Below, one piece after another: positions 1 to 55,708 of a DNA stretch of 64,000 nt. The notes beneath the pieces are model-generated. The model did not search any database and had not been told where the DNA came from. It was given only the letters and a program-made list of their open reading frames with translations. The DNA is taken from assembly GCA_951812335.1 (NCBI GenBank), contig OX638293.1, positions 124,001-188,000 on the forward strand, given 5' to 3'. Made by a program: the position numbers and the translations under genes. Positions within the stretch are counted from its first letter, which is position 1. Every line of letters begins with the position of its first letter. Source of the DNA: Rhodothermales bacterium (GTDB lineage Bacteria; Bacteroidota; Rhodothermia; Rhodothermales; VXPQ01).

Positions 1-899
1 GCATTGGCGACATCGCTTGCCTCGGCTCTCATCGGGCGAGGATTATCGATCATGCTCTCGAGCATCTGCGTAGCGGTGATCACCGGCTTGCCAGCCGCAA
101 TACACTTGTGGATGATCATTTTCTGCGTGGATGGCACCTGTGAGATAGGCATTTCGATGCCCAGATCCCCGCGTGCCACCATGATGCCCTCGCTGGCCTC
201 CAAAACGGCATCGAAACGGCGGACCGCTTCCGGTTTCTCGATCTTGGCTAATGCCATAACCTGTTTGCCCGATGCACGTATACGCTGCAGCAAGTCGATT
301 ACGTCGGAATCGTCGCGCACGAACGACAGGGCAATCATATCGACATCCTGTGACAAGCCGAATGCAAGGTCGCGCCGATCTTTTGCAGTAAGCGCCGGCG
401 CAGACGTTTTGATGTCGGGCAGATTGACTCCCTTTCGGGAAGACAAAGGCCCGCCGACAATCACCTCGGTAACGACATCGGTGTCGACAATATCTACTAC
501 TTGCAATTCTAGCAAGCCGTCGTCGACCAGAATGCGCCCGCCTACACTGACATCCTGCGCCAGCAGGTCGTACGTGATCCGCACCCGCTCGGCCGTGCCG
601 TATTCGATGGGTTCGGTAGTCAGTGTTAACCGCTGCCCCTTGCCGATCGGAACGGCGCCGTTTCTGATCGGCCCAAGCCGGATTTTGGGCCCCTGCAGAT
701 CCTGGAGAATCGGCACCACCTTCCCCTGTTCGTCGGCTGCCTCGCGCACGTACCGAATAAGCCGGGCATGATCATCGTGATTGCCGTGAGAAAAGTTGAG
801 CCGGGCAATATCCATACCCGCCCGAATCAACTCCCGGATCGTGCCGGCATCCGACGAAGACGGTCCCAGGGTACAAACAATTTTGGTGCGTCGCCTCAT
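1..899 (-). CDS. pyk: Pyruvate kinase, N-terminal part (cut by window edge)
   Basis: Glycolytic enzyme converting phosphoenolpyruvate and ADP to pyruvate and ATP in the cytoplasm. Reading the minus strand from the ATG at 899 gives about 299 codons that remain open at the left edge. The start is [16 protein letters not shown]; the N-terminal barrel motif RLNFSHG lies near residues 33-39 and [10 protein letters not shown] near 67-76. The inserted B domain follows, then the active-site lysine segment [10 protein letters not shown] and the signature block around [11 protein letters not shown] and [10 protein letters not shown]. The C-terminal allosteric domain is outside the window. The start codon lies only 6 bp from a copy of the inverted-end repeat (906-1024), so that repeat forms the immediate 5-prime leader. 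Identification is secure; the exact length is unknown. Confidence 0.95.
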
Positions 900-905
900 A
901 GTCAC

Positions 906-1024
906 AGGATACTCTGGTCGAGTCCGCGAAGTTCAGAGTATCCTTAATTTCAACGATGGAATCATGATGTCATCTACGCGCGAAAGTAAAGTGCCGGGCG
1001 AAGCGGTTTTGATCAGAGTATCCT
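906..1024 (+). repeat. Inverted-end repeat, deleted derivative (119 bp)
   Basis: Begins AGGATACTCTGGTCGAGTCC and ends TTTTGATCAGAGTATCCT. The first 39 bases (906-944) already form a mini-element bounded by both inverted ends. The rest (945-1024) matches the right third of the full-length copies at 7209-7462 and 51622-51875. The central hairpin region is missing. It fills almost all of the space between the pyruvate kinase start (899) and the hisI stop (1033). Confidence 0.85.
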
Positions 1025-1032
1025 GAATATTT

Positions 1033-1422
1033 CTACCCGTACACTTCATCCGGGTCAAACACGCGTTCGCTGTCCGTAACAAGGCGTGCATGTTCGTATC
1101 GACGATGAAAACACGACTTGTGCCCGGTGTGACAGGCAGCTCCTCCATGCTGCTTCACCTTAAAAAGAAGCACATCGCCGTCGCAATCGATCCGGATTTC
1201 CATGACCTCCTGAATATGACCGCTGCTTTGCCCCTTCACCCAGGTTTCCTGACGAGAACGACTCCAATACGTCATAACGTTCTCTTCGAGTGTGCGTTGC
1301 AGGGTATCCCGGTTCATCCAGGCAAGCATCAATACCTCGCCCGTTTCGTGATCTTGCGCCAGTGCCGCAACCAATCCATCGGGGCCGAATTTTATTTGTT
1401 CGAGCAATTCATTCCTGTCCAT
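1033..1422 (-). CDS. hisI: Phosphoribosyl-AMP cyclohydrolase
   Basis: Third step of histidine biosynthesis: opens the purine ring of phosphoribosyl-AMP. The protein is 129 aa from the ATG at 1422, the normal size for the stand-alone HisI domain with no HisE fusion. Visible family motifs are [13 protein letters not shown] (residues 52-64), the metal-binding DCDGD (79-83) and the zinc-type cysteines in [10 protein letters not shown] (C97 and C104, with C80 upstream). The frame stays open upstream of this ATG, but the extra sequence has no HisI similarity and overlaps yidD on the other strand. No other his genes are in the window. It ends 8 bp from an inverted-end repeat. Confidence 0.95.
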
Positions 1423-1858: not shown

Positions 1859-2364
1859 GCTACGACGAACACAAGCAAGCCGCACAAAACACCCCCGTGC
1901 GCGCTGGCGTGATCACTGTCAGCGATACGCGGACGGAAGCGACGGATACCAGCGGTGGATACATAGTGGAAACCCTGACGGAAGCCGGCGTCGAGATCAT
2001 AGAAGCCCGTATCGTACCCGACACCCCGAAACGCATCGAATTGGCGCTGGATGAACTGGTCACGCGTTGCGAAGTAATCGTGACCACCGGCGGCACCGGC
2101 ATTAGCCGGCGGGATACAACCATTGAGGTTGTGACTCGGAAATTCGAGCGAACGCTGCCGGGATTCGGCGAAATTTTCCGGATGCTTTCCTATGAGCAAA
2201 TCGGAGCAGGCGCCATGCTCTCTCGCGCTGTCGCAGGAATGTGGAGTAATGTGCTTATCTTTTCCCTTCCGGGTTCGTTGCATGCCGTGCGGCTGGCGAT
2301 CGAACAATTGATCCTGCCTGAAATCCATCATCTCGTTTGGGAAACGATCCGGCAACAAGCATAG
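1855..2364 (+). CDS. moaB: MoaB/MogA-family molybdopterin protein
   Basis: Predicted cytoplasmic molybdopterin-binding protein of the MoaB/MogA family (adenylylation of molybdopterin in MogA; MoaB function varies by organism). It is 169 aa from a GTG start that overlaps the yidD stop. Motifs: GVITVSDTR near the N-terminus (18-26), the MPT-binding loop TTGGTGIS (77-84) and SLPGS (137-141). No moeA, moaA or molybdate transporter gene lies nearby, so MoaB versus MogA cannot be decided from context. The TAG stop overlaps the first bases of an inverted-end repeat half-site (2363-2380). Confidence 0.9.
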
Positions 2365-2380
2365 GATACTCTGATCGAAA
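2363..2380 (-). repeat. Solo end of the inverted-end repeat
   Basis: AGGATACTCTGATCGAAA matches the terminal inverted repeat found at the ends of the full copies. Only this end is present, overlapping the moaB stop codon and lying 17 bp before the cysS start. Confidence 0.7.
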
Positions 2381-2397
2381 CTGCATATCACGCCCCG

Positions 2398-7039: not shown

Positions 7040-7425
7040 GGCGCCCTTCCGGAACAGCGATAAAATGGATGTTTATGGGGTTTCGCACATGCTTTTGCGC
7101 TGGATAAAGCCGTGGCGAGCCACGTAAAAATAACTTAGGACCATCAAGAAAACACGGGGACATTCCTGCGCTCTGAAACACCGGAGCCGACACGAAATCA
7201 CTATTTGGGGATACTCTGATCAAAACCACTTCGCCCGGCACTTCACGTTCGTGCGTAAAGGATATCATAATGGCATCGTCGGAATTAGCGGGAAACGCTG
7301 CGGATCAGGAGCAGTGCGGGCGTGAAGCGCCCTTCGGGAGGCTGCGAGAAGTACGCTGGCTGCGTCATTCCTCATTATGCAGGGCCTGCCACACTGCTTC
7401 GTCATTCCTTGCCGACGCACCCCTC
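7040..7425. other. trkA-trkH intergenic region
   Basis: 386 bp without a convincing gene. About 7209-7425 is the larger part of a full-length inverted-end repeat. The remaining 7040-7208 would hold the trkH leader. It contains a short perfect inverted repeat, CGTGGCGAGCCACG at 7111-7124, about 72 bp upstream of the trkH start; no T-run follows it on either strand. Open frames here are low-quality translations of the repeat. Confidence 0.6.
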
Positions 7426-7462
7426 TCAGCCTCTGAGCCTTGCGGACTTAATCAGAGTATCC
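7209..7462 (-). mobile_element. Full-length inverted-end repeat (254 bp), MITE/REP-like
   Basis: In reverse orientation relative to the copy at 51622. It is bounded by GGATACTCTGATCAAAA on the left and TTAATCAGAGTATCC on the right. The interior aligns along its whole length to the copies at 35247-35503 and 51622-51875, with roughly four of five bases identical by eye. The hairpin-2 arms are 7238-7247 and 7321-7330 (CGTGAAGCGC); hairpin 1 lies between about 7340 and 7430. There is no reading frame for a transposase. The terminal 37 bp overlap the 3-prime end of trkA. Flanks read TTTGG before and TTTGC after, a possible short target duplication. Confidence 0.85.
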
Positions 7463-8811
7463 TTTGCGGAAAATTTCCGCTCGATATCGTCAATGCGAGA
7501 AGGCATGACGAACACGATAGCCCGATCCCCGGCGGCTATATGCGTATCTCCAGTGGCAATGCATGCTTCGCTGTTATGCAACACGGCGCCGATGAGCGCC
7601 CCAGGTAACAGTTGCAACTCCCTGAGAGGCTTTCCGGATATCCACGACCGGGGTTTGGCCTCGATTTCGATGATCTGGGCATCCAAACCATAAATGGTAG
7701 CCACGCTCCGTACATGCGTTCCGCGCAGATACCGGTGAATCTCCCGGGATACGGCCAATTTTTTACTGACGGCCGCATCCAGGCCGATACTCTGACTGAT
7801 CGGGATATACGTATTCTTGGAAAGCAACGCCACCGTCTTCCTGACGCCAAGATGTTTGGCCATAAGGCAGGTGACCAGATTCGATTCTTCGTCGTCCGTC
7901 ACCGCCACAAAGGCATCCATCTCGCCCAGCCCTTCCTGAACCAGTAAATCGATATCGGTGGCGGCGCCGTGGATGACGAGCACATGCTGCAGCATCTCCG
8001 CCAGTTTCGCTGCCCGTTCTCTGTTTGGCTCAATAAGTTTCACGGCCTTGTTCTTTTCGCATCCGAATTGGGAAGCGACACTCACACCCACTGCGGTCCC
8101 GCCAAGAATCATGATGTGATTTGCCCGGGTTTCCGCTTTGCCCATCATAGCAGATATATATCCCATGTATTTCGGCAAGGCAAGCACGAAAACCTGGTCG
8201 CCTTGCCGGAGCGTATCGCTACCGCCGGGAATAATCGTTCGGGCACCCCGGCTAATACCCATCACGCGAAACCGCACATGGCTATGCGCCGCCGCCACTT
8301 CCTGGAGTGTTTTACCCGCGACGGGAGCATCGGGATCGATCCGGAGGCCCATCAACTGCAACCGGCCATCGGCGAAATCGAGAATGTCGGTGGCGCTGGC
8401 GCGGCGCACCAGCCACACAACCTCGTTGGCGGCGCTTTCTTCCGGATGAATGACAAGATCAATCCCAAAATCGCTCGTCTTGAGCACAGATTGGGCGCGA
8501 GTAATTTCATCGGACCGAACGCGGGCAATGGTCGTCGATACACCGAGTCGGTCCGCCAGCATACAGGCAATGATATTCACTTCGTCCACAGGCGTTACCG
8601 CTATCAGCATATTCGCCCTGGCTATACCCGCCTCTTCAAGTACGTCCGAGGACGTACCATTGCCGACAATGGCCATCGCATCGAGTTTTTCATGGACCTG
8701 CCGGATGGCGTCGGCATCCTGGTCGATAACCACGACGTCATGCTCCTCGCACGACAGCATACGAGCCACATCGTACCCCACTTCACCTGCTCCTACGACA
8801 ATAATGCGCAA
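7426..8811 (-). CDS. trkA: Trk system potassium uptake protein TrkA
   Basis: Cytoplasmic regulatory subunit of Trk potassium uptake, 461 aa. It consists of two tandem RCK halves, each with a nucleotide-binding RCK_N and an RCK_C domain: GAGEVGYDVARM at residues 7-18 opens the first, and ILGGTAVGVSVA near 235 opens the second. The best start is TTG at 8811 (MRIIVVGAGEVG); no ATG exists upstream in frame before a stop at 8986-8988. The last residues (KDTLIKSARLRG) and the TGA are encoded inside an inverted-end repeat, so the native C-terminus was probably altered by the insertion. Its partner trkH lies downstream. Confidence 0.95.
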   Translation of the reverse strand: MRIIVVGAGEVGYDVARMLSCEEHDVVVIDQDADAIRQVHEKLDAMAIVGNGTSSDVLEEAGIARANMLIAVTPVDEVNIIACMLADRLGVSTTIARVRSDEITRAQSVLKTSDFGIDLVIHPEESAANEVVWLVRRASATDILDFADGRLQLMGLRIDPDAPVAGKTLQEVAAAHSHVRFRVMGISRGARTIIPGGSDTLRQGDQVFVLALPKYMGYISAMMGKAETRANHIMILGGTAVGVSVASQFGCEKNKAVKLIEPNRERAAKLAEMLQHVLVIHGAATDIDLLVQEGLGEMDAFVAVTDDEESNLVTCLMAKHLGVRKTVALLSKNTYIPISQSIGLDAAVSKKLAVSREIHRYLRGTHVRSVATIYGLDAQIIEIEAKPRSWISGKPLRELQLLPGALIGAVLHNSEACIATGDTHIAAGDRAIVFVMPSRIDDIERKFSAKDTLIKSARLRG

Positions 8812-12877: not shown

Positions 12878-13130
12878 GTGCCGGACGTGATCCGCCAATC
12901 GGGGATACCACATAGTCGGGCGGCCTGCAAAATCGACGAAAACCCCGTTTGTGGAGTGCTTGCCAAATCAAAGGGCGACCGCTTTGGGCTGGTTTCAGTC
13001 GGCGAGGTATACGAATATCCGCTCGTACACCCGCAATCGGAGACCTTGCCGGGGCAACGTGGATCCCACCGGCTATCGCGGCGTCTACGACGAATTCGAA
13101 CGCTTTGCGGAAGCCGTGACCATGGCTTGC
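12878..13130 (+). pseudogene. Unidentified frameshifted coding remnant
   Basis: One frame reads [20 protein letters not shown] then [20 protein letters not shown]. About one codon later a frame shifted by one base reads [20 protein letters not shown] followed by VTMA. Both pieces look like real protein, and they lie in the order expected of a single gene broken by an indel. The second piece runs straight into the repeat end at about 13127, where the sequence becomes repeat-derived (CRRTPLSL, stop). The family was not recognised. Alternatively these are chance open frames. Confidence 0.4.
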
Positions 13131-13231
13131 CGGCGCACCCCGCTCAGCCTCTGAACTTCGCGGACGTAATCAGAGTATCCTTGCGGGAAACACTCCGGAT
13201 CAGGGCGTCGCAGACGTAATCAGAGTATCCT
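13127..13231 (-). repeat. Two tandem ends of the inverted-end repeat
   Basis: CAGAGTATCCTT occurs twice, ending near 13180 and 13230. Each is preceded by the expected inner sequence in reverse orientation (CGGACGTAAT, CAGACGTAAT). The first unit also contains CGCACCCCGCTCAGCC, matching the interior next to the end. This looks like two truncated insertions in tandem, ending about 20 bp before the cysD start. Confidence 0.7.
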
Positions 13232-29666: not shown

Positions 29667-29749
29667 AGGATACTCTGATGAAGTCCGCGAAGTTCAGAGG
29701 CTGCGAGGGGTTCGCTGACCGAAGCGGTTTTGATCAGACAGAGTACCCT
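29667..29749 (+). repeat. Inverted-end repeat, internally deleted (83 bp)
   Basis: Left end AGGATACTCTGATGAAGTCC followed by GCGAAGTTCAGAGGCTGCG. It then jumps to the right-end sequence GAAGCGGTTTTGATCAGA and a damaged terminus (CAGAGTACCCT). The hairpin region is lost. It lies between the epimerase start and the gmd 3-prime end. Confidence 0.75.
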
Positions 29750-35179: not shown

Positions 35180-35617
35180 GATCCAGACGATTGATTACTA
35201 TGCATAACCCATTGGACATCCCGGATTCCGGAACCTCATCCGGTGCAGGATACTCTGATTAAGTCCGCAAAGTTCAGGGGCTGAAAGGGGTGCGCTGGCA
35301 AGGAATGACGAAGCAATGCGGCAGGCCCCCACATAATGAGGAATGACGCAGCTAGCGTGCCCCTCTCAGCCTACCGAAGGGCGCTTCACGCCTGCGATGC
35401 TCCGAATCCGTAGTGTTTCTCGCTACTTTCAACGATGCAATTACAATATCTTTTACGCACGAACGCGGAGCGCTGATCAAAGTGGACTTAATCAGAGTGT
35501 CCTGCAGGTATTATGCGCAGAAGCCCGACTTGCTCCCGAAACCCCGTATAATAATGCGGCACACCCGCTAACGCGGTTACTCGCCCCCTCCCTTTCATCG
35601 TTCACTTTCACACGGAT
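35180..35617. other. Divergent fcl-manC intergenic region
   Basis: 438 bp without a gene. 35247-35503 is a full-length inverted-end repeat. 35504-35617 would contain the manC promoter and leader; no clear -33/-7 pair could be assigned by eye. Open frames across this stretch are translations of the repeat. Confidence 0.6.
35247..35503 (+). mobile_element. Full-length inverted-end repeat (257 bp)
   Basis: Left end AGGATACTCTGATTAAGTCC; right end GGACTTAATCAGAGTGTCCT. In this copy the inverted ends therefore match over about 20 bp with one change. The interior matches the copies at 7209 and 51622. Hairpin 1 (AGGGGTGCGCTGGC pairing with GCTAGCGTGCCCCT, partly by G-T pairs) spans about 35282-35365. 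The hairpin-2 arms are 35381-35390 and 35464-35473, with one wobble and one mismatch. Flanked by TGC/GC sequence on both sides. No coding capacity. Confidence 0.85.
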
Positions 35618-45156: not shown

Positions 45157-45254
45157 AGGATACTCTGATCAAAAATAGTGCGTATTCGGAGCGTCGCGGG
45201 CGCGAAGCGCCCTTCGGAAGGCTGCGAGAAGTGCGGACGTAATCAGCGTATCCT
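45157..45254 (-). repeat. Inverted-end repeat, deleted derivative (98 bp)
   Basis: Starts AGGATACTCTGATCAAAAA and ends GACGTAATCAGCGTATCCT, in reverse orientation. It retains the piece GCGAAGCGCCCTTCGGAAGG of the interior but lacks hairpin 1. Directly follows the mpl stop codon. Confidence 0.8.
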
Positions 45255-45340: not shown

Positions 45341-45375
45341 GCATTAGGGCCCGGCTGACTCCGCCAACGCGCTGG

Positions 45376-45418
45376 CGTCGCGGGCGTGAAGCGCCCTTTG
45401 GGAAACTGCGAGAAGTGC
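45376..45418 (-). repeat. Isolated interior fragment of the inverted-end repeat
   Basis: CGCGGGCGTGAAGCGCCCTT and the following GGGAAACTGCGAGAAGT match the interior of the full copies (compare 7313-7352) without either terminus. Confidence 0.6.
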
Positions 45419-51542: not shown

Positions 51543-51882
51543 AAAACAACTCGTTTACAAACAGCCTGCCGAAAACCGACTTGCTGCAAAACACCTGACG
51601 CCGCACCGGGTTCCCTCTTATGGATACTCTGATTAAGTCCACAAAGCTCAGAGGCTTGCGAGGGGCGGGCTGGCAAGGAATGACGAAGCAGTGTGGCAGG
51701 CCCCACACAATGAGGAATGATGCAGCCAGCTTGCCCCTCGCAGTCTCCCGAAGGGCGCGTCACGTCCGCGATGCCGGAAACCTCAGTGTTTCCCGTTGAT
51801 TTCAACGATGGAATCCTAACATCCTTTGCGTACGAACGTGACGCGCTGAGCGAAGCGGTTTTGATCAGAGTATCCATAATTT
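51543..51882. other. Intergenic region filled by a full repeat
   Basis: 340 bp between the hydrolase and MurF-like genes. 51622-51875 is a full-length inverted-end repeat. 51543-51621 contains a run related to the hydrolase 3-prime end (repeated CAAC/GAAAA-rich sequence) and nothing recognisable. Only 7 bp separate the repeat from the MurF-like ATG. Confidence 0.65.
51622..51875 (+). mobile_element. Full-length inverted-end repeat (254 bp), best-structured copy
   Basis: Ends GGATACTCTGATTAAGTCC and TTTTGATCAGAGTATCC; with the flanks the dyad extends to TTAT...ATAA. Hairpin 1: GCGAGGGGC-GG-GCTGGC (51658-51674) pairs with GCCAGC-TT-GCCCCTCGC (51725-51741), with an inner GTGTGG/CCACAC stem (51691-51708). 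Hairpin 2: GCGCGTCACGT (51755-51765) pairs perfectly with ACGTGACGCGC (51836-51846). The copy at 7209 replaces a G:C pair here by T:A on both arms, preserving pairing. No coding capacity; resembles a MITE or large REP element. Confidence 0.9.
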
Positions 51883-54941: not shown

Positions 54942-55691
54942 ATGCCTGTATACCGCATGACGATAGAATACGACGGCGCGCCTTTTTCCGGATGGCAAAT
55001 CCAGCCGGGCAGGCCGACGGTGCAAGCCGCGCTCGAAGAGGCGCTTGCAAAAGCCTTGCGCACCCCGACAGGCATTGTCGGGGCAGGACGCACCGACGCC
55101 GGCGTACACGCCCGGGGGCAGGTCGCACACTTTCTTGCCGATGCTCTCCCAAGGAATTCCACGATACATATTCGCCGCCTTCTTGCTTCCCTGAACGGTC
55201 TTCTCCCCGACGCTATAGCTGTCCGCACACTCGCCGTTGCTCCCGATGGCTTTCATGCCCGCTACGATGCCCGCCTCCGGCGCTACCGCTACTACATCGC
55301 AACCGGGTTTCGTGCCCTCGATCGACATATGCGCGTACATATCCGACCGGAGCCGGATCTCGCGCTCATGCAGGCCGCTGCCGATACGATCCTCGGCGAA
55401 CACGATTTCGATACGTTCTGCCGTACGCAATCGGAGACGAAGAACCGTGTTTGCACCCTGTACGAGGCGCGCTGGACGGACGAATCGGGCGACGGCGACG
55501 CGTATTTAGAAATAACGGGAAACAGGTTTCTGCACGGCATGGTGCGCGCTATTGCGGGAACCCTGCTGGAGATAGGGCACGGCAAACGTCCTGTGGACGA
55601 TATGGCCCGCCTCCTGGCCAGGAAAGATCGCCGCGCCGCCGGGCCCTCGGCGCCTGCCCATGGGCTTGTGCTCGAAGAAGTGGTGTATTAA
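54942..55691 (+). CDS. truA: tRNA pseudouridine synthase A
   Basis: 249-aa enzyme forming pseudouridine at tRNA positions 38-40. The catalytic aspartate D52 is in GAGRTDAGVHARGQ (47-60). N-terminal MPVYRMTIEYDGAPFSGWQI, FHARYDARLRRYRYYI and ITGNRFLHGMVRAIAGTLLE near the end are diagnostic. ATG 54942. Its TAA (55689-55691) shares its last base with the start of a repeat half-site (55691-55708). Confidence 0.95.
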   Translation: MPVYRMTIEYDGAPFSGWQIQPGRPTVQAALEEALAKALRTPTGIVGAGRTDAGVHARGQVAHFLADALPRNSTIHIRRLLASLNGLLPDAIAVRTLAVAPDGFHARYDARLRRYRYYIATGFRALDRHMRVHIRPEPDLALMQAAADTILGEHDFDTFCRTQSETKNRVCTLYEARWTDESGDGDAYLEITGNRFLHGMVRAIAGTLLEIGHGKRPVDDMARLLARKDRRAAGPSAPAHGLVLEEVVY

Positions 55692-55708
55692 GGATACTCT
55701 GATTAAGA
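55691..55708 (+). repeat. Solo end of the inverted-end repeat
   Basis: AGGATACTCTGATTAAG matches the left terminus of the full copies exactly. Only this end is present. It overlaps the last base of the truA stop codon. Confidence 0.75.

Follow-up and report, generated by a model that had tools for sequence, protein, structure and literature searches.

Copies of a non-autonomous IS5-type MITE lie against stop codons in an uncultured Rhodothermales genome

RUP of Streptococcus pneumoniae, a 107-bp element of about 108 copies, carries the termini of IS630-Spn1 and inserts at TA (PMC2229807). The repeat family described here resembles RUP in being small and non-autonomous, in having termini shared with an insertion sequence and an A+T target, and in carrying stops in its frames (PMC2229807); it differs in that RUP is tied to IS630 rather than IS5, targets TA rather than a TTAA-type site, and is reported to hit IS elements, not stops. 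The Correia elements or NEMIS of Neisseria are likewise hairpin-forming, intergenic and present in hundreds of copies (PMC2229807), whereas their termini are unrelated to ours and no counterpart of their RNase III and IHF roles was seen here. QMITE of Coxiella burnetii can insert in frame at the 3′ end of a gene and add C-terminal residues, or a stop may adjoin the element (PMC5896051). Such C-terminal addition resembles one gene described below (7426-8811), although QMITE belongs to a different family and the part of that account drawn on here holds no genome-wide stop-codon statistics (PMC5896051). MITECca01 of Cardinium, a Bacteroidota endosymbiont, is also high-copy and mostly intergenic, within a host-restricted Bacteroidota genome, but has been compared with ISCca4 (IS982) and not with IS5 (PMC9769881). 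REP/REPIN sequences and their RAYT (Y1) partners offer a further parallel, being extragenic, palindromic and of high copy number. A REPIN/RAYT origin was considered for our repeat on account of its tail and hairpin ends and its 39-bp palindromes, and was rejected: no Y1_Tnp gene (Y1, PF01797) was matched in the six genomes of the genus, with positive controls, and a DDE-type target duplication and IS5 termini are found instead. The closest comparison is the IS5 group of the IS5 family, which duplicates Py-T-A-Pu, with TTAA among the recorded sites (PMC5493358). As in that group, our element shows a 4-bp TTAA-type duplication, and fragments with the same terminal repeats match IS5 transposase models; it differs in having no gene, and the termini are all that it has in common with the copies that carry a transposase.

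The window analysed here is a stretch of 64,000 nucleotides, positions 124001-188000 of a 2,686,407-base Rhodothermales genome (G000). Relatives carrying the same repeat are the Rhodothermales MAGs OX638295.1, JANQSQ01 and JAJDWX01, and the genus was sampled through the genomes of six species, four of which are draft. Element copies were counted with a profile HMM (nhmmer) and by pairing terminal inverted repeats (TIRs). Genes were called with a home-made hexamer model on overlapping stretches that jointly cover the genome, which was worked on stretch by stretch, adding no more than 12 kb from the adjoining one; the stops of these calls are reliable, their starts less so. The copies in the window are as follows.

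906..944, no strand assigned: 39-bp palindromic short copy of the 38-39-bp class (element proper 907-943), 6 bp from the pyk start (899)
942..1024, plus strand: right-end fragment (model 174-256; nhmmer match, contig 124942-125024), 8 bp from the hisI stop (1033)
2363..2385 (right limit approximate), plus strand: decayed copy in which the TIR alone is recognisable; its first G completes the TAG stop of moaB (2362-2364)
7208..7463, minus strand: full-length copy (nhmmer, contig 131209-131463), its 7208 side 168 bp from a gene
13121..13181, minus strand: left-end fragment (model 1-61; nhmmer)
13219..13231, minus strand: second terminal repeat of the 13121-13181 cluster
29667..29718, plus strand: left-end fragment covering model 1-52, with the epimerase start (29661) 5 bp away
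35247..35503, plus strand: full-length copy; the starts on either side are 67 and 114 bp away
45157..45254, minus strand: 98-bp internally deleted copy with both TIRs, 3 bp past the mpl stop (45153), its 45254 side 231 bp from a gene
45375..45418, minus strand: interior fragment (model 110-153; nhmmer)
51621..51876, plus strand: full-length copy, stopping 6 bp short of the MurF-like ATG (51883)
55691..55703, plus strand: terminal repeat right after the truA TAA (55689-55691), sharing its last A

The first-pass annotation had drawn attention to seven short distances between repeats and gene borders, and all seven agree with the gene calls made from the sequence. The list was nonetheless selective, having been taken from 12 repeat blocks whose other sides lie 22-404 bp from genes, and the block at 906-1024 is not one unit; a 39-bp palindromic copy abuts the right end of another copy. 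Gene 7426-8811 (minus strand) runs 38 bp into the element at 7208-7463 and ends at an element-encoded TGA, its last residues being read from the element, and the sister-species protein ends about 11 codons earlier. A similar element-coded gene tail was seen at G000 740657-742525, in two species.

The repeat is a 254-bp element with the ends GGATACTCTGAT...ATCAGAGTATCC and near-perfect TIRs of 12-16 bp. It has the features by which MITEs are recognized, being short, bounded by TIRs, devoid of coding capacity and dispersed in many copies, with a target-site duplication and clean empty sites. Profile matches number 288 in the 2.69-Mb genome and total about 44 kb, or about 1.6% of it. Genome-wide, 108 copies of 240-265 bp are bounded by TIRs, and across the whole genome the terminal 13-mer with its leading A occurs 411 times at no more than one mismatch (reversed control, 0). 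A search of the window with Rfam covariance models at the gathering score returned no matches. Each of the six species examined in the genus carries the element, and none of 93 other genomes of the order does; full copies have a median pairwise identity of 82%, and the family is therefore old. Departures from full length recur as distinct sub-types, comprising a 39-bp palindrome (the 38-39-bp class numbers 18 copies genome-wide), copies that lack model 145-208 internally, copies whose interior (134-227) is inverted, a full copy with a duplicated right end (177-256), and copies nested at model 202/203. The last of these, a full copy within another, was observed three times (G000 563529-564045, 565437-565953 and 1303983-1304505), and this nested insertion probably spread as a composite or was carried along when larger segments were duplicated. 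At one orthologous site, a 39-bp palindrome in one species (L190, 2732-2764) faces a 337-bp composite in G000 (1072028-1072360), a pairing which suggests that deletion between internal and terminal TCAGAG gives rise to the palindromes.

The target site becomes visible once the element end is set at GGATAC, with the leading A assigned to the duplicated target. With this end, 40 of 124 copies have the same 4 bp on both sides, against a shuffled mean of 10.1 and maximum of 18; an end that included the leading A (AGGATAC) gave a 2-bp TA duplication plus one to three extra bases in place of this clean 4-bp signal, and was discarded. TTAA is the commonest duplicated 4-mer, and TAAA, TTTA and TATA also occur, a looser set than Py-T-A-Pu. 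The exact 4-bp duplication is no longer present in two thirds of copies. Mobility is evident from comparison with relatives about 89% identical to this genome: of 56 of their element sites that could be placed here, some 20 are clean empty sites with an uninterrupted target. TTAA occurs 892 times inside genes and 596 times between them, and only two of the 288 matches lie wholly inside genes; the near-absence of intragenic copies despite so many sites suggests that gene-breaking insertions were presumably removed by selection. Three copies, including one at G000 1492419, are flanked by inverted repeats of at least eight bases (e.g. GCCGGTAA / TTACCGGC), as if inserted in the middle of a palindrome or in a terminator loop; shuffles gave 0.16 such copies on average and two at most.

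Candidate partners were sought among transposase genes. In the sister genome G004, decayed or partial IS5-group transposase genes (DDE_Tnp_1) end in the terminal repeat of the element, and these fragments match NCBIfam transpos_IS5_4 (E=5e-40) and Pfam PF01609 (E=1e-22). One G004 locus (L219) is a deletion derivative that retains both TIRs, 668 bp apart. Elsewhere in the order, other genera carry IS5-group copies whose ends are related, for example GGATGTTCTGATT and GGATAGTCTGATT, and an open relative of 328 aa (L230, from another genus) has the terminus GGATGTTCTGATT on one side only. No intact transposase with the element termini was found in the six genus genomes, four of them draft. A single-copy DDE_Tnp_1 gene (L213, G000 636280-636654) was rejected as partner, there being no element terminus nearby; genes like it occur in two other species (G001 and G002), again without element termini, and may represent a different, perhaps stranded, IS5-type gene. 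Apart from three near-identical transposase genes (G000 529150, 1507705 and 2256517), no recent multi-copy transposase was seen in this genome. This three-copy transposase, which we take to be IS1595-like, was also set aside, as it is not among the genes bounded by element termini. Since the remains that carry the same terminal repeat are of the IS5 group, mobilization in trans by an IS5-group DDE transposase is likely. The repeats are old copies and fragments of a non-autonomous IS5-type MITE, which is ordinary in kind but spares stops in a neat way.

We consider it very probable that five features jointly explain the placement of the copies: an IS5-type MITE, a TTAA-like target, a purifying filter, the sparing of stops, and the retention of decayed ends. 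An IS5-group DDE transposase, now represented by fragments only, would have moved the MITE in trans into 4-bp TTAA-like targets, which are duplicated upon insertion. Purifying selection would have removed the insertions within genes, leaving copies in short intergenic gaps. TAA and TAG stops contain the TA of the target, and an insertion there is harmless and keeps the stop codon in position, because a stop reading xTAA up to the junction is kept whole by the duplication, and one reading xxTA becomes TAG at the same codon through the first G of the element. Copies thus accumulate exactly at stop codons. As copies decayed, a terminal repeat at a stop may have been kept more often than others, probably because the repeat now is, or adjoins, the stop.

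The preservation of stops can be observed directly. Twenty-two genes of this genome end in a TAG whose G is the first base of the element, and for five of the touched genes (truA and those at 738467, 981698, 1492418 and 1693392) a relative without the element has its stop at the identical codon. For truA, an element-free sister species (L207) has the same stop codon, and the gene has one codon more in a further relative (L205). In the opposite direction, three insertions in relatives (L171, L199 and L209) sit on stops that are found at the same codon in this genome, which brings the genes in agreement to eight.

To quantify the placement of copies, we compared the positions of 455 terminal ends genome-wide with random expectation. 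Relative to stops, 22 ends lie at offset -1, 24 at 0 and 10 at +1; a genome-wide null weighted by 4-mer expects 2.0 at -1 and 6.0 at 0 (46 observed against 8), and likewise 4.4 ends at 4-10 bp past stops, where 27 are found. This null overstates the stop excess, because uncalled genes and regulatory regions count as available. A first null that ignored the base beside the flank underestimated stop contacts and was replaced. In a stricter, within-gap null, each of 129 single copies was randomized within its own gap in 1000 simulations: 34 stop contacts were observed, against 6.2 under uniform and 20.9 under target-weighted placement, and no simulation reached 34 in either. The result was the same (20-21 contacts expected) when the weights were drawn solely from ends lying 30 bp or more away from genes. 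The target model thus accounts for about 21 of the 34 contacts in the whole set. Full-length copies taken by themselves show no excess (16 contacts, 12.7 expected, P about 0.13), and the remainder lies in shortened copies, where its cause is only suggested: among stop-facing ends, 36 of 97 touch a stop in shortened or one-ended copies and 16 of 76 do so in full-length ones (Fisher P=0.03). At starts, the within-gap null expects 6.3 (uniform) or 4.0 (target-weighted) ends within 0-2 bp, where seven are observed, and within 10 bp there is no excess (17 against 21.6 and 19.2). The earlier proposal that insertion targets gene borders therefore survives for stops, and there indirectly, through a TTAA-like target that often coincides with TAA or TAG; distances to starts do not differ from random placement within gaps, which on the terms of the first-pass annotation itself refutes the start half of its proposal. 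The tight spacing is real at stops and mostly a by-product of target choice, not of regulatory function, and start-side proximity is chance.

A first alternative holds that an RNA hairpin keeps the element near gene ends, acting as a terminator, a stabilizer of mRNA 3′ ends, or an RNase III site as in Correia elements, which have a role in RNA processing. The fold of the element is very stable (z = -9.6 for the copy at 51621..51876), and an excess at stops with none at starts would be expected of such a function, as would the more frequent retention of shortened copies there. We nevertheless regard this as improbable. A palindromic fold is common in MITEs, and convergent gaps, which make up 17% of intergenic bases, hold 36 of 316 blocks and are not favored, copies instead following intergenic length. 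In the stems of 68 tandem-gap copies, mismatches comprise 150 G-U against 180 A-C, with no G-U bias on the transcribed strand, and full-length copies show no stop excess after target modeling. Promoter scans of two full copies found none, and terminator scans at most one weak match, nothing beyond chance. Many copies do lie where they would be transcribed, as the first-pass annotation had anticipated, but its suggestion of a useful leader, terminator or processing function finds no support in the convergent gaps, the G-U comparison or these scans. Individual copies may have a regulatory role, but nothing in the analysis calls for one.

It is less probable still that the transposition machinery recognizes more than the 4-bp target, namely stops as such or the 3′ ends of transcripts. 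The genome-wide excesses at stops and 4-10 bp after them point in this direction, as does the residual within-gap excess of 34 over 21; the former are inflated by their null, however, and the latter is gone in the full-length, less altered copies. That genes only seem to end at the repeat, having been truncated by insertions whose TIR supplied an in-frame stop, is scarcely credible as a general account, for although this is real in some cases (offsets -11, -15 and -37, with six, three and four ends, and gene 7426-8811 in the window), truncation in random phase predicts equal numbers at -1/0, at -11 and deeper, where 46, six and eight are observed, and the element-free orthologs of touched genes stop at the same codon.

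Our preferred reading, an IS5-type MITE placed by its target and filtered by selection, supplies a sequence-level reason for repeats that hug stop codons: a duplicated TTAA-like target and a G at the element tip together make the insertion silent. This reasoning extends to other IS5-type and TA-targeting elements, and it cautions against taking the proximity of repeats to stops for a sign of terminators or regulators. These data also document a genus-wide MITE radiation in uncultured Rhodothermales. More tentatively, the family might exemplify a 'stop-codon-sparing MITE', whose termini suit its target in such a way that insertion rebuilds TAA or TAG at the same codon and hosts keep the decayed ends as stops for ordinary genes, a possible benign niche in a compact genome.
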